DNA from: Actinomycetota bacterium
GTDB taxonomy: Bacteria > Actinomycetota > Geothermincolia > Geothermincolales > RBG-13-55-18
Length of the DNA stretch: 47,739 nt
Reading direction: 5' to 3'
Assembly (NCBI GenBank): GCA_030019255.1
Contig: JASEFK010000017.1
Span: forward strand, 1-47,739
In this document: in pieces, positions 5,986 to 26,584 of the stretch
How positions within the stretch are numbered: position 1 is the first letter of the stretch
How the letters are laid out: each line of letters starts with the position of its first letter
Program-made: the position numbers and the translations under genes
The notes under the pieces: model-generated
Seen by the model: the letters and a program-made list of their open reading frames with translations, nothing else
Databases searched by the model: none
What the model was told of the DNA's origin: nothing

Positions 5986-6870
5986 TTGGACCTTAAAGAG
6001 GCGGTCGACATCCTGGGCATGCTCCTGGAGGGGAAGGACAGAAAACCCCAGGCGGCGGAACTGCGCAGGGTGGGATCCATGATCCTTGACCTCGCCCGGG
6101 AGATGGACACGGTTCCCGGTGGGAAGCCACTCTCTTTAGATGAGCTGGAGAGAGCCTTGGGCTACCTGGAGAACCATATCGGTGAATTGGGTGGCGATGC
6201 CCTTCGCGAAGCCATGGACTTGAGGAAAAACCTTGTGGACATAAGCGAGGGAAGGGAAAAGAAATCGAGGCATGGTCATGGAGTAATAAATCAACCTCAA
6301 CTTAACATTAAGTATAAGGATACTGAGACAAAGGATAGGGTTATAGAGCCGGTCATGGAAGCGGACGAGGAGGAAGCGTACGAGGCAAAAAGAGAGCCGG
6401 TCCCCTCCAGGCAAAACTTAATATCCGGGAATTCATTAACCTTCCGGGAAGGAAGGACACTCGGTAGAATGTTAAGAGATAAAAGGTTAAGTTTAGGGTT
6501 AAAACAGAAGGAAGTGGCGGAACGAATAGGCGTATCCCCGTCTTACCTGTCGTTGCTCGAAAACGAAAGGTGCCCTCGTATCTCGAGGAGATTGAAGGAA
6601 AGGGTGGAGGCCTTCTTGGAAAGGGAGGGGGACACGGAAGGGGTCGTGGAGGTCCCCGCTAACGCTTCTACCGGAACAAGTAACTTGAATAAGAAGGGAG
6701 TGACTTACACACGTACCTGCAAGGGGGGTAAAATGGAAGTTGAAGGTATCGATAACTCCCATCGCCGGGAGGATGCGCTGAAAAAACTTCTCCAGGCCTC
6801 GCTGCGACTGGGAAGGGAAGAATTATTGTTGTTGTATGAAATAGCGAGGCGGCTTGGGGAGGAAAATTAA
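5986..6870 (+). CDS. XRE-family helix-turn-helix regulator with unknown N-terminal region
   Basis: Probable DNA-binding regulator, 294 residues. A Cro/C1-type HTH sits near residues 160-215: LGRMLRDKRLSLGLKQKEVA, followed by RIGVSPSYLSLLENERCPRI, the typical recognition-helix pattern. The first 90 or so residues are helical and resemble no family I recognise; the middle is charged and probably disordered; the last 35 (ALKKLLQASLRLGREELLLL) form another helix. The start is TTG at 5986 behind AAAGGAGGAGGGGGC, a strong site at good spacing. The gene is less GC-rich than the flagellar genes. It is divergent from cheA and isolated by long gaps on both sides, so it may control itself, cheA or the downstream sensor genes. 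Target unknown. Confidence 0.8.
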   Translation: MDLKEAVDILGMLLEGKDRKPQAAELRRVGSMILDLAREMDTVPGGKPLSLDELERALGYLENHIGELGGDALREAMDLRKNLVDISEGREKKSRHGHGVINQPQLNIKYKDTETKDRVIEPVMEADEEEAYEAKREPVPSRQNLISGNSLTFREGRTLGRMLRDKRLSLGLKQKEVAERIGVSPSYLSLLENERCPRISRRLKERVEAFLEREGDTEGVVEVPANASTGTSNLNKKGVTYTRTCKGGKMEVEGIDNSHRREDALKKLLQASLRLGREELLLLYEIARRLGEEN

Positions 6871-21077: not shown

Positions 21078-21326
21078 ATGCTGGTTCTCACGCGCAAGAT
21101 AATGGAGAGCGTGGTCATCGGGGACGACATAGAGGTCTTCATCCTGGAGATCAAGGGCGACCGGGTGCGCCTGGGTATTAAGGCCCCCCGGGAGGTTTCC
21201 GTGCACCGCAGGGAGATATACGAGGAGATAACGCGCGCCAACGTAGAGGCCGCCTCGGCCACTCCCGAGGCCACCCGCGAGATGGATCGCCTGCTGGGCG
21301 AAAGGCACTTGCCGGGAGGGGGTTGA
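21078..21326 (+). CDS. csrA: Carbon storage regulator CsrA (translational repressor)
   Basis: RNA-binding protein that blocks ribosome access at GGA-containing leader hairpins; in this setting the expected main target is flagellin mRNA. 82 residues. The signature [20 protein letters not shown] is followed by [20 protein letters not shown]. The RNA-contact residues L4, R6 and the VHR motif are present. A C-terminal tail of about 20 residues extends beyond the usual 61-75. ATG at 21078 follows GAGAAGGCGGGCAGGG, and fliW lies upstream. Confidence 0.97.
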
Positions 21327-21584: not shown

Positions 21585-22358
21585 TTGGAAGACAAGGACA
21601 CGGGCCACGGGAAAAGGATAGTGTGTATCGAGGACGACCCCGATGTCTCCACCATGATCCGTACCGTCCTTTCCATGGAGGGCTACGAGGTGGTGGAGGC
21701 GGCCAAGGGCACCATGGGCCTGGACCTTCTTTACCGGACCTTCCCCCACGCTGTCCTCCTGGACCTACGCATGCCCATCCTGGGCGGCATGGGCATCCTG
21801 GAAATCCTCAAGGATAAAAGCGGCCTCCGGGAAGTTCCGGTGATCTGCGTGACGGCGGCGACCGACGAATTCTCCATGTACGAAGCCCTCTACCGCGGCG
21901 CCGATGCCTACCTTTTCAAGCCCATCAAGATCGATCTGCTCAAGCTGGTGCTGCGATTTCTCCTCGAGGAACGCGACCGCCCGTCCCGGGCGAGGGAGCT
22001 AGCCGGCTACGGGCGGGCGCGCGAGTTCCTGGACCTCGTGGGCCGGGACGTGGATCACCTCCCCAAGCTGGAGGCCCTCCTGGTCATATCCTCCCGGGGA
22101 CGCATTGCCCGACACCGATTGGACGAGAGCATGGTCTACGGGGGTGGGGACTTGGCGTGCATCCTGGAGGAGATGGTAGAGTCGGGAATCCTCGTCGGCG
22201 AGGGAGAGGAAATCGCCGTCTCGGAGGCCTGGAGGGCCAGGGCGAGGAGGATAAGGGACCTGGCCGCGGAGCACCGTGGGCTGGAGCTCTTGGCCAACCT
22301 GGTGCACATGGGGATCAACCTCTTCGAGACCGGCGCCCCAGGGGCGGAAACGGGCTGA
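21585..22358 (+). CDS. Response regulator with winged-helix-like C-terminal region
   Basis: 257 residues. The receiver domain covers about 10-128: IEDDPD near 15-20, phospho-acceptor in VLLDLRMP near Asp60, Thr in VICVTAATDE near 90, and Lys in YLFKPIK near 112. The remaining 120 residues are not a known output domain to me. One segment (DLACILEEMVESGILVGEGE) looks like the recognition part of a winged helix. The start is TTG at 21585 with TTAGGAGGTAGAAC, a very strong site. It ends 9 bp from the convergent glycosyltransferase gene. No kinase is adjacent, so the partner may be CheA or one of the upstream kinases. Confidence 0.85.
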   Translation: MEDKDTGHGKRIVCIEDDPDVSTMIRTVLSMEGYEVVEAAKGTMGLDLLYRTFPHAVLLDLRMPILGGMGILEILKDKSGLREVPVICVTAATDEFSMYEALYRGADAYLFKPIKIDLLKLVLRFLLEERDRPSRARELAGYGRAREFLDLVGRDVDHLPKLEALLVISSRGRIARHRLDESMVYGGGDLACILEEMVESGILVGEGEEIAVSEAWRARARRIRDLAAEHRGLELLANLVHMGINLFETGAPGAETG

Positions 22359-22367
22359 AGAGGTCAC

Positions 22368-23447
22368 TTACCGGGAACTTTGCGCGTGGACGCCGGACCG
22401 CGAGACCTGGCTGCTTGGCGGGGAAGCTTCTTCGGCGATGGACAGCGGAAACGCACCTTCCGCGTGCGACCAGCGTTGAAGCAGGAAGTCCAGGTTCCGG
22501 AGGGAGGATTCGTCGTGGACGGGGGACTCCGCCGCGGACATCGATCCCAGGCGGAGGGCCTGTGATGCGTGAACCACCAGGAAGCGAAATCCGTATAAGC
22601 GGGCCCTCAGGGTCCAGTCCACGTCCCCGTAGGTGCCGGGAGGGAGGTAGCCCTCCTCGTCCAAGAAGCCCGTCTCCAAGGCCGGGCGACGGCGCAGGAG
22701 GGCGCAGTAAAGGGCCAGGGCTGGCACTTCATCCGTTCCTTCCACGGAGGAGGGCCTTTCGCCCTTGCGCAGTGGTAGGAGCAGGGGTTTGCCGTCCGGG
22801 GTGCGCGACGGGCGGTAGCCGGCATGGCAAATATTACCATCCATGTCCAGGATCAGCGCGGAGGCCGCCAACGCCCCGGGATCGCTTTCCAGGGCCGATA
22901 GAAGGTGGCGCAGCCAGTCCGGGCGCACCAGGACGTCCTCCCGCACCACGGCCAGGTAATCGCCCCGCGCCTCCAGAAGAGCCTGGTTCACGGCTGCCGG
23001 GAGGCCCGTGCCCCCCGGGTTCTCCAGTTTACGACAAGGAATGTTTTCCAGGTATCGACCGGGAACCGAACCGGGTTTGGCCAGGGAAACCATCAGCTCC
23101 CCCTCCTTCCCCAGGCTCCGGAGAATTGCTCCCAGGCACAGGTGAAGGAGGGGATGTCCCCGGAGGACGGGGACCAGCACGGTCACCCGGGTGTCCCCTT
23201 CCCGTGGCCCGGCGCCGGGATCGTCGCCCGTGTCCTCGGCGGGGGAAGGACGACTTGCGCAGCGGGGACAGGGACTGAGGGGGGAGAGGAAGCGCAGCTC
23301 GGAGAGGTGCAGCTCTCCGCAGAGGGGACAGCGCAGCTCCACCAGGGTGCCACGGCGCAGGGCCTCCTCCAGGTCCCTGAGCCCGGCGGGGCGCCCTTTG
23401 AGCAACGCCTCCCTGAATTTCTCGTGGGGAATGAAGTATTTCCTCAC
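22368..23447 (-). CDS. GT2-type glycosyltransferase with N-terminal zinc ribbon
   Basis: 359 residues. Residues 40-63 contain CPLC and CPRC separated by 16 residues, a likely zinc ribbon, unusual for this family. The GT-A fold follows: DTRVTVLVPVLRGHP at about 85, then NQALLEARGDYLAVVREDVL near the metal-binding position (ED in place of the common DD/DXD), and GTYGDVDWTLRARLYGFRFL resembling the ED...R acceptor motif of GT2 enzymes. The start is GTG at 23447. It is the downstream member of a two-gene minus-strand unit inserted among plus-strand flagellar genes between csrA and flagellin. Flagellin glycosylation is a reasonable inference, but sugar and acceptor cannot be read from the sequence. 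Confidence 0.8.
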   Translation of the reverse strand: MRKYFIPHEKFREALLKGRPAGLRDLEEALRRGTLVELRCPLCGELHLSELRFLSPLSPCPRCASRPSPAEDTGDDPGAGPREGDTRVTVLVPVLRGHPLLHLCLGAILRSLGKEGELMVSLAKPGSVPGRYLENIPCRKLENPGGTGLPAAVNQALLEARGDYLAVVREDVLVRPDWLRHLLSALESDPGALAASALILDMDGNICHAGYRPSRTPDGKPLLLPLRKGERPSSVEGTDEVPALALYCALLRRRPALETGFLDEEGYLPPGTYGDVDWTLRARLYGFRFLVVHASQALRLGSMSAAESPVHDESSLRNLDFLLQRWSHAEGAFPLSIAEEASPPSSQVSRSGVHAQSSR

Positions 23448-23480
23448 CGCTCGGACCTCTCTCCCGGGCCGGCGCGTCCC

Positions 23481-24548
23481 TCAGTTGGGGGAGGAAATCG
23501 CTTCCACGGCGGAGAGCAGGCGGCGTCTCAGGATGAGCGTCTCCAGTATCCCCTCCCAGAGGGGAGCGTAATGGTCGGACATGCGCCTCTCCACTATCTC
23601 CCTGGCCCGCCGCCCCATCCTGCGGCGCAGGTCCTCCTTCTCCACCAGCACGCTCAGGCGACCGAACCACTCCCTGCGGTGGGAGCAGAGGAAGCCGTTC
23701 TCGCCTTCCTCCACCAGGCGCCGGTAGGCGGGCAGGGGACTGGCCACGAAGGGGATGCCCAGGGCGGAGTACTCCAGGCCCTTGAGATCGCTCTTGCAGC
23801 GATTGAAGGAGTTGTCCGCCAGGGGCACCAGCCCCACGTCGAAGCGGGCCAGCATCCCAGGGTACTCCTCGAAGGGCACCGGGGGGAGGTATTCCTTCTG
23901 TTCTTCCGGTACCTGGTCAAGGAGGGCGAAGACCTCCTTGGGTCCCCCCACGGCCACCTTGACCTGCGGGTAGCGGCGGCACAGGGCCTCGAGGACCGGG
24001 ACCAGGGGGCGGAAATCCTCCAGGTGGGTGGGGGAACCGGCCCAGCCCACCACCACCCTTCCCGCCTCCTTCTCCGGCCGCGGGTTCCACGCCGGGTCCC
24101 CCAGGTCGATGCAGTTGGGGAGGGGAAAGGTGTTGGGGTTCAGGGGGGTGAACAGCTCCGCGAGCTCCGGGGTGGACACGGTCACCCCGTCCGCCGCCCG
24201 GGCGCACTCCTCCAAGGCGCGAGCCTTGCCGTCCCGGCCTCGAAAGGCCCGAAAGGCCGGGTTGTAGAAGGGGGTGGCCCGCACGTGGTCGTCCACCTCC
24301 ACCAGGCCCACCTTCCCCAGCGCGGCCAGCCTCCGCAGGAGGGTGAGCACGCCCTTGTGCTGGGCCATCTGGATAACGTAGACGTCGTAGGAGGTGTCCA
24401 CGGGATCGTAGGTCTCCGGGTTGAGGCTCACCCCTACCCGCCAGTCGGCTCGGTGGCCCCGGCGGCGCAGGGCACGCGCCGGGTAAACGCACCGGTAATG
24501 CCCGCTCCCCGACAGGTTGGCGCAGTAGAAAAGCACCCTCATGCCCAT
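23481..24548 (-). CDS. GT4-like (GT-B fold) glycosyltransferase
   Basis: 355 residues. The N-terminal Rossmann-like strand is MRVLFYCANLSGSGHYRCVY. The donor-binding half has VVVGWAGSPTHLEDFRPLVP, then KGLEYSALGIPFVASPLPAY and EEGENGFLC, equivalent to the E-x7-E region of GT4 enzymes. ATG at 24548 follows GGAGGGAGGG; a second ATG 6 nt later is possible. The next gene starts 33 nt downstream in the same direction, suggesting a two-gene operon transcribed away from flagellin. The position supports a role in modifying flagellin, as in many flagellar glycosylation islands. This is inference. Confidence 0.85.
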   Translation of the reverse strand: MGMRVLFYCANLSGSGHYRCVYPARALRRRGHRADWRVGVSLNPETYDPVDTSYDVYVIQMAQHKGVLTLLRRLAALGKVGLVEVDDHVRATPFYNPAFRAFRGRDGKARALEECARAADGVTVSTPELAELFTPLNPNTFPLPNCIDLGDPAWNPRPEKEAGRVVVGWAGSPTHLEDFRPLVPVLEALCRRYPQVKVAVGGPKEVFALLDQVPEEQKEYLPPVPFEEYPGMLARFDVGLVPLADNSFNRCKSDLKGLEYSALGIPFVASPLPAYRRLVEEGENGFLCSHRREWFGRLSVLVEKEDLRRRMGRRAREIVERRMSDHYAPLWEGILETLILRRRLLSAVEAISSPN

Positions 24549-25067: not shown

Positions 25068-25238
25068 ATGGAGCTCACCGACAGGCAGCTGGGGCTGCTG
25101 GAGAACGCCGTTTTCCTCTGGCTGACCATACTCCCCCCCGTCTCAGCCGAGGTGCAGAGGGAGCTAGGGGAGCTTCTCAACCAGCTGGGGAGGATGCGCT
25201 CCGCGTCCGTGGTGGGTAGGGAGCAATCCACCTCTTGA
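25068..25238 (+). CDS. Small hypothetical protein upstream of flagellin
   Basis: 56 residues starting at ATG 25068 behind AAGGAGGGAAGG. The product is amphipathic and helical (MELTDRQLGLLENAVFLWLT; PPVSAEVQRELGELLNQLGR), with no family recognised. The frame extends upstream to GTG 24966, which would add 34 residues including the duplicated LTKEG; the good ribosome site favours the short form. It sits alone between the glycosyltransferase pair and flagellin, so a role in filament assembly or its control is possible but unproven. Confidence 0.55.
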   Translation: MELTDRQLGLLENAVFLWLTILPPVSAEVQRELGELLNQLGRMRSASVVGREQSTS

Positions 25239-25477: not shown

Positions 25478-26584
25478 ATGGCACTCAGGATCAACCAGAA
25501 CATCGCGGCGTACAACGCCCACCGCAACCTGACCCTCACCGACAGCCTGCTGTCCAAGTCGCTGGAGCGCCTGTCCTCGGGCCTGCGCATCAACCGCGCC
25601 GCCGACGACGCCGCCGGGCTGTCCATCAGCGAGAAGCTGCGCAGCCAGGTGCGGGGCCTGCAGCAGGCGGTGCGCAACGCCCAGGACGGCATCTCCCTCA
25701 TCCAGACGGCGGAGGGCGCCCTGCAGGAGACCCACGCCATCCTACAGAGGATGCGAGAGCTGGCGGTGCAGGCGGCCAACGGAACCCTGACGGATGCCGA
25801 CCGCCAAGCGATACAGTCGGAGGTGTCGAATCTCATTAACGAGGTCACCAGGATCGCCAATTCCACCAAGTTCAACGGTGAGGCCCTGCTCAATGGAGGC
25901 CTGGGATCGAGTATCACCGTGTCGGGATCCAGCCTCAACCCTCAGTACGGTATCAGTAACATAGAATCCCTCGGAGCCGCCGCCGGTACATACTACCTTT
26001 CTTTCGTCGCCAGCAGCAACGAGCTTACCTTGTCCGATGGAACCAATTCCGAGACCCTTAGAGTAACGGTTCCGAGCGGCGAGTTCGAGACCTCGGTGGT
26101 TACCTTCTCCAGTTTCTCCGTGGCGGTAACCATCAACTCCGCCCTCACCGCTGACATCGCCAGCGGAAACGGCGCTTTCGACGTGACCGCAGGGGCCATG
26201 AGCCTGCATATCGGGGCCTACAAGGATGAGACCATCACCGTGAGCGTGGGGGACATGAGGGCATCGGCACTGGGAATTGATTCCCTCGACGTGAGCTCCA
26301 TAAGCGGGGCGGAAGCCGCCATCGAGTCCCTGGATTCAGCGATAAACCAAGTCTCCGAGCAGAGGTCCAACCTGGGGGCCGTTCAGAACCGCCTGGAGCA
26401 CACCATCGCCAACCTGGGCGTGGCGGTGGAGAACATCTCCGCCTCCGAGTCCCGCATCCGCGACGTGGACATGGCCGCGGAGATGGTCAACTTCACCCGC
26501 CAGCAGATCATGATCCAGGCCGGCACGGCCATGCTGGCCCAGGCCAACGCGGTGCCCCAGACCGTGCTGCAGTTGCTGCGTTAA
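25478..26584 (+). CDS. hag: Flagellin
   Basis: Filament subunit, 368 residues. The conserved D0/D1 N-terminus is complete: MALRINQNIAAYNAHRNLTL, then KSLERLSSGLRINRAADDAA and GLSISEKLRSQVRGLQQAVR. The C-terminus is also complete: RIRDVDMAAEMVNFTRQQIM, ending in QANAVPQTVLQLLR. The central variable region (about 140-275) is short, rich in Ser and Thr, and a plausible site for O-glycosylation by the neighbouring glycosyltransferases. ATG at 25478 has a strong CAAGGAGGATGATCGAAG site. A GC-rich hairpin follows the stop. Only one flagellin gene is present in the window. Confidence 0.97.
   Translation: MALRINQNIAAYNAHRNLTLTDSLLSKSLERLSSGLRINRAADDAAGLSISEKLRSQVRGLQQAVRNAQDGISLIQTAEGALQETHAILQRMRELAVQAANGTLTDADRQAIQSEVSNLINEVTRIANSTKFNGEALLNGGLGSSITVSGSSLNPQYGISNIESLGAAAGTYYLSFVASSNELTLSDGTNSETLRVTVPSGEFETSVVTFSSFSVAVTINSALTADIASGNGAFDVTAGAMSLHIGAYKDETITVSVGDMRASALGIDSLDVSSISGAEAAIESLDSAINQVSEQRSNLGAVQNRLEHTIANLGVAVENISASESRIRDVDMAAEMVNFTRQQIMIQAGTAMLAQANAVPQTVLQLLR

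Follow-up and report, generated by a model that had tools for sequence, protein, structure and literature searches.

A small candidate flagellin-glycosylation island in the flagellar gene cluster of an actinobacterium related to Candidatus Solincola

Gene content of the minus-strand unit and its surroundings

The stretch of DNA analysed here (the window; 47,739 nucleotides) is contig C17 of a 2.93-Mb draft genome (G000; 98.76% complete) from a bacterium related to Candidatus Solincola, a member of the Actinomycetota assigned to Ca. Geothermincolia in the NCBI taxonomy. Among its relatives are Candidatus Solincola tengchongensis, Ca. S. daggyaiensis and further Actinomycetota MAGs, and on the strength of these the window is taken to be from the class Ca. 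Geothermincolia. A gene caller based on codon position predicts 37 genes between 14261 and 47626, of which 35 are on the plus strand, and the sole minus-strand genes are a pair of glycosyltransferase (GT) genes (Table 1). Both open reading frames are intact, the first starting with GTG and the second with ATG. They are separated by 33 bp, and their third-position G+C (0.78 for the first and 0.90 for the second) is as in real genes of this DNA. The neighbouring FliW, CsrA, response regulator, flagellin and FlaG genes were verified with Pfam. A preliminary description had reported that the flagellar genes from 14 kb onward are on the plus strand, except for a two-gene unit that separates csrA and the response regulator from flagellin, one of its genes being GT2-like and the other GT4-like. 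The open reading frames and gene calls agree with that layout, and both family assignments exceed their Pfam cut-offs (23.3 bits for the GT2-like gene; 39.1 bits against 25 for PF13524 in the GT4-like gene, with PF13692 and PF00534 likewise above theirs).

Table 1. Features of the minus-strand unit and its borders in the window
Feature	Coordinates	Strand	Evidence
GT4-family glycosyltransferase (predicted GT-B fold), 355 aa, constant island core	23481..24548	-	Pfam, AlphaFold2, Foldseek, VIA-align; 8 of 31 class genomes
Zinc-ribbon-GT2-like fusion, 359 aa, variable second gene	22368..23447	-	PF00535, 34.4 bits
N-terminal zinc-ribbon-like domain (CxxC...CPxC), encoded by a separate gene in one related genus	23238..23447	-	Alignment, profile search
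Flagellin, 368 aa, presumed acceptor	25478..26584	+	PF00669 and PF00700, composition
Conserved small ORF, 56 aa, between GT unit and flagellin	25068..25235	+	Substitution pattern; 7 of 8 flagellin genomes
Response regulator, 257 aa, left island border	21585..22358	+	PF00072, 74.8 bits
CsrA, left island border	21078..21326	+	PF02599

No sugar-nucleotide genes are present at the window's own locus, and no RNA element was found in the window or in its 0.9-kb intergenic region. A first sigma-28-like promoter pattern has no match in the window; nor does a second, and none was found close upstream of either GT gene. Among eight stretches upstream of flagellin genes, the second pattern matches once, 892 bp from the flagellin gene of relative G027. 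Elsewhere in the window, a 294-aa open reading frame (5986-6870, plus strand) has a third-position G+C of 0.59, compared with 0.75 or more in the other called genes, and is possibly foreign.

The central region of the flagellin (residues 141-282) was described earlier as short and Ser/Thr-rich, and Ser+Thr do make up 27% of its 142 residues, compared with 14% elsewhere in the protein. This discriminates only weakly, because flagellins of genomes with a close GT4 gene have 23-30% Ser+Thr and those of three relatives within the phylum that lack one still reach 18-23%. Two of the relatives (G010 and G006) each have two nearly identical tandem flagellin genes (L071:6489-9287 and L072:10061-12850, respectively).

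The 56-aa ORF is conserved at 98, 93 and 89% in the nearest relatives, which equals or exceeds flagellin conservation. Relative to each of two congeners it has 8-9 synonymous and no non-synonymous codon changes in 44 codons. It has nothing above cut-off in Pfam and no match in NCBIfam. Besides the flagellin genomes, it is found in G028, which has no flagellin, adjoining a homologue of the window's response regulator, and there is one more weak match in G021. The product possibly works with that response regulator, and we do not claim it as a glycosylation component.

Distribution and history of the GT4 gene

Class-level counts refer to 31 genomes of the class. A GT4 profile (E 1e-30) and the flagellin profile PF00700 identify the identical set of eight among them (G000, G002, G003, G005, G006, G010, G012 and G027), although the genomes are related and the co-occurrence therefore represents fewer independent events than 31. 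G001, a genus mate that is 96% complete, has neither gene. Outside the class, three genomes of the phylum (G033, G039 and G049) have a true flagellin and no close GT4, and in a fourth (G035) the flagellin query matched only at its FlgL.

The GT4 gene adjoins flagellin in divergent orientation in seven of the eight genomes, apart from the 56-aa ORF where that is present. In the eighth, G027, it shares the strand of flagellin at a distance of about 4 kb, and the intervening stretch holds the gene of a 907-aa GT-like protein and the small ORF. In G033 and G049 flagellin is the gene immediately after csrA, which makes the GT unit an insertion with respect to those distant relatives; in G035 the gene after csrA encodes a DegT aminotransferase. 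Comparison of cluster order thus bears out an insertion with respect to some distant relatives, but the unit is common to all flagellin-bearing genomes of the class that were examined.

This arrangement also bears on which flagellar protein is modified. It is quite improbable, in our view, that GT4 acts on the cap protein FliD, the hook-associated proteins or the hook and not on flagellin: the genetic link is to the flagellar cluster as a whole, with FliD, FlgK and FlgL within 7 kb of the unit, but flagellin is the filament gene nearest to GT4 in all eight genomes, and flagellin is also the presumed target of known islands with a comparable layout (PMC5109656).

The GT4 protein is predicted to have a GT-B fold, and its family profiles score above cut-off. 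The AlphaFold2 model (pLDDT 78, pTM 0.78) aligns with BshA (Z 24.8, rmsd 3.1, 310 residues) and PimA (Z 24.7, rmsd 4.3, 312 residues) in VIA-align, and Foldseek and VIA-align together match it to PimA, BshA and MshA, as well as to the protein-modifying SdgB. The solved structures of PimA, BshA and MshA share the GT-B fold with it (Z 21.7-24.8 across ~300 residues), but differ in having 13-20% identity, other acceptors and another genomic setting. The best NCBIfam match, to a GPMC-system enzyme (NF038229), was rejected at a score of 40.5 against a cut-off of 400.

Beyond the eight close orthologues, homologues are remote. In a first search of relatives (59 genomes), 33 had some GT4 match at E 0.001, mostly remote GT4-like stretches, and only eight had close matches (46-100% identity). 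A search of 396 genomes of the phylum at E 1e-30 found 20 with a match, consisting of the eight close ones and 12 with distant homologues. Of 14 distant-homologue loci retrieved, 13 were annotated (L121 and L125 are outside the annotation). The window's flagellar proteins have no match in these 13 loci from the 12 genomes, several of which are on contigs of only 3-10 kb. Close orthologues beside unrelated polysaccharide genes, which would speak against a flagellar role, were not seen; outside flagellar loci there are only distant homologues, with best BLAST identities of 27-40%.

In view of these observations, a role of the GT pair in the synthesis of a cell-surface polysaccharide or glycolipid, with an accidental position at the flagellar locus, is very unlikely. 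The nearest solved folds are indeed those of GT4 enzymes with lipid or small-molecule acceptors, and the distant homologues do lie outside flagellar loci. However, the fold says nothing about the acceptor, given that SdgB is matched too, and all eight close orthologues are in flagellar loci, with GT4 absent where flagellin is absent.

The preliminary description also suggested that the pair was possibly acquired separately. For GT4 this is unsupported, because the gene is under flagellin-like constraint (dN/dS by NG86 of 0.13-0.27, compared with 0.16-0.35 for flagellin) and trees of GT4, flagellin and FliD have the same genus-level splits, the order within genera being weakly supported (44-78). 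On the basis of the congruent genus-level trees and the normal G+C (0.680 for the pair, 0.651 for the window), a recent separate acquisition of GT4 was rejected.

The zinc-ribbon-GT2 gene and variable island content

Conservation differs between the two genes, with GT4 alone being constant and the second gene variable. The full zinc-ribbon-GT2 fusion is present in three of the eight genomes (G000, G002 and G005), while G003 has a broken remnant of two short fragments within about 0.4 kb. In G006, G010 and G012 the first 65 residues of the fusion have a homologue that is a separate protein of roughly 100 aa without a Pfam match, and neither a zinc-ribbon nor a GT2 gene was detected in G027. Strong matches to a zinc-ribbon profile (E below 1e-30) occur in only six of the 31 class genomes, every one of them in this island; a further match, in G024, is weak, and G005 additionally contains two partial repeats.

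The GT2 part is the less well-defined portion of the protein. Its structure model, for which PF00535 membership would predict a GT-A fold, is poor (pLDDT 48), for which reason PDB matches of the model were not used. A sequence search against solved structures returned only SpsA (E 0.0044) and toxin glucosyltransferase chains (E ~0.06), which we read as chance or fold-level similarity. Assignment as MftF (TIGR03965, the best NCBIfam match) was rejected at 41.2 against an equivalog cut-off of 280. The DxD-like motif, a putative metal site whose residues we presume to have catalytic roles, reads RED in two of the three fusions and REG in the third (G005), where Gly replaces the last Asp; a homologue in G311 has NND and EDVD where the window has RED and GDVD.

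The gene may be dispensable, because its dN/dS is high (0.35-0.43 by NG86, above that of GT4), it is broken in G003, and its DxD-like motif contains Gly in G005. Taken further, with the weak Pfam scores of the GT2 part (25-35 bits), these features could mean that GT4 alone works and that the zinc-ribbon-GT2 gene has lost its function and is decaying. We regard this as rather unlikely, since the frame is open over about 350 codons in three of the eight genomes, the dN/dS is below 1, and all four zinc-ribbon cysteines are invariant in six of six aligned sequences.

Three direct copies of the beginning of the zinc-ribbon-GT2 gene, spaced about 140 bp apart, occur in G005 (L070:11595-11942), and the corresponding junction in G003 carries shorter repeats. 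These repeats may reflect slippage or domain shuffling.

Among the relatives, island content ranges from two genes up to a larger, multi-gene locus that includes sugar genes. In G010, GT4 and the zinc-ribbon gene are followed by genes for a 439-aa GT-B-type protein (no solved-structure relative at E 0.1), a DegT aminotransferase, a Gfo/Idh protein, a hexapeptide acyltransferase and another GT4. The aminotransferase is closest to PseC in NCBIfam (312.6, cut-off 423.5) and the Gfo/Idh protein to UDP-GlcNAc 3-dehydrogenase (278.4, cut-off 450). A 2,3-diamino sugar in G010 is a guess, because none of these proteins reaches its NCBIfam cut-off. The 907-aa protein of G027 is 34% identical to the 439-aa protein of G010 and is accompanied by a UDP-GlcNAc-3-dehydrogenase-like Gfo/Idh protein, and G006 encodes a GT2-TPR protein of 790 aa.

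Known systems and proposed role

The profile PF01973 (MptE-like domain), which we take to be linked to the Maf flagellin glycosyltransferase, has no match in any of the eight flagellate genomes, although its controls matched only in archaea and it may miss bacterial Maf. The NeuB-type profile PF03102 has weak matches (33-41 bits) in all eight. We inspected two of these, one in G003 and one in G000, and presume from their features that they are DAHP synthases. An island of the Maf or nonulosonic-acid type was set aside on these grounds, and the best reading is an island with neither Maf nor a credible NeuB. Because PF01973 is absent from all eight genomes and the inspected NeuB-profile matches look like DAHP synthases, the GT locus is the obvious glycosylation candidate.

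Variable sets of GT2, GT4 and sugar genes beside flagellin are also a feature of Geobacillus flagellar loci, for which De Maayer and Cowan (2016; PMC5109656) describe islands of 13-30 kb between flaA2 and flaG in half of the strains, with G+C about 10 points below that of the genome and Maf sometimes present. The island described here differs from these in having two genes in the window, in its location between csrA/response regulator and flagellin, in its normal G+C, in its lack of a Maf-type domain and in its presence in every flagellin-bearing genome of the class that was examined. A second parallel is Caulobacter FlmG, a flagellin-dedicated glycosyltransferase that binds flagellin through an N-terminal TPR domain and has pseudaminic acid as its sugar (PMC7591256). 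It can serve as a model for combining a GT with a distinct substrate-binding part or helper domain, but the window's proteins have no TPR match in Pfam and its genome has no credible NeuB.

That this is a flagellum-linked glycosylation locus, ordinary in kind, is well supported. Comparison lends good support to the flagellin-glycosylation module proposed in the preliminary description, through the shared occurrence of flagellin and GT4 in eight of 31 genomes, their adjacent and divergent placement in seven of eight, and the sugar-nucleotide genes of enlarged loci. We therefore consider it likely that the locus is a small flagellin-glycosylation island, with GT4 as its constant, flagellum-dedicated core, an exchangeable zinc-ribbon-GT2 gene, and flagellin as the probable acceptor. 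We infer the acceptor, linkage and donor from position and from the known systems (PMC5109656; PMC7591256).

In the most likely mechanism, GT4 would act in the cytoplasm before flagellin export, and would transfer, or extend, a sugar from a nucleotide donor on Ser/Thr of the central flagellin region, giving a putative O-linkage. The zinc-ribbon-GT2 protein would then add a second sugar or aid substrate handling, the order of transfer being likewise conjectural. It would be exchangeable, other genera having in its place a free zinc-ribbon protein together with a larger GT-B protein and sugar-nucleotide genes. A more specific proposal, which we think unlikely, is that the zinc-ribbon domain is a new type of dedicated flagellin-glycosylation adaptor, free in one genus and elsewhere fused to a partly degenerate GT2-like partner, that presents flagellin or docks on GT4 in a role like that of the FlmG-type TPR domain. 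We found no literature joining flagellin glycosylation with a zinc ribbon.

The locus is thus a gene cluster of a familiar type, met here in a lineage for which it has seemingly not been described. A search of the literature, thin for subscription papers, found no description of flagellin glycosylation in this class, and the main text of a 2023 survey of actinobacterial flagella (PMC10746217) does not contain the string 'glycos'. If the glycosylation reading is right, filament glycosylation goes with flagella across this actinobacterial class, which is deep-branching and mostly uncultured, and the two are lost together. The two-part design – a constant GT4 and an exchangeable zinc-ribbon partner – is unusual, and allows flagellin recognition to be tested. 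Beyond the class, the flagellate G049 has, downstream of fliS (L078:1-3893), genes for a fusion of a GT with a methyltransferase and for a GT2-TPR protein, which are possibly an unrelated flagellar glycosylation set.
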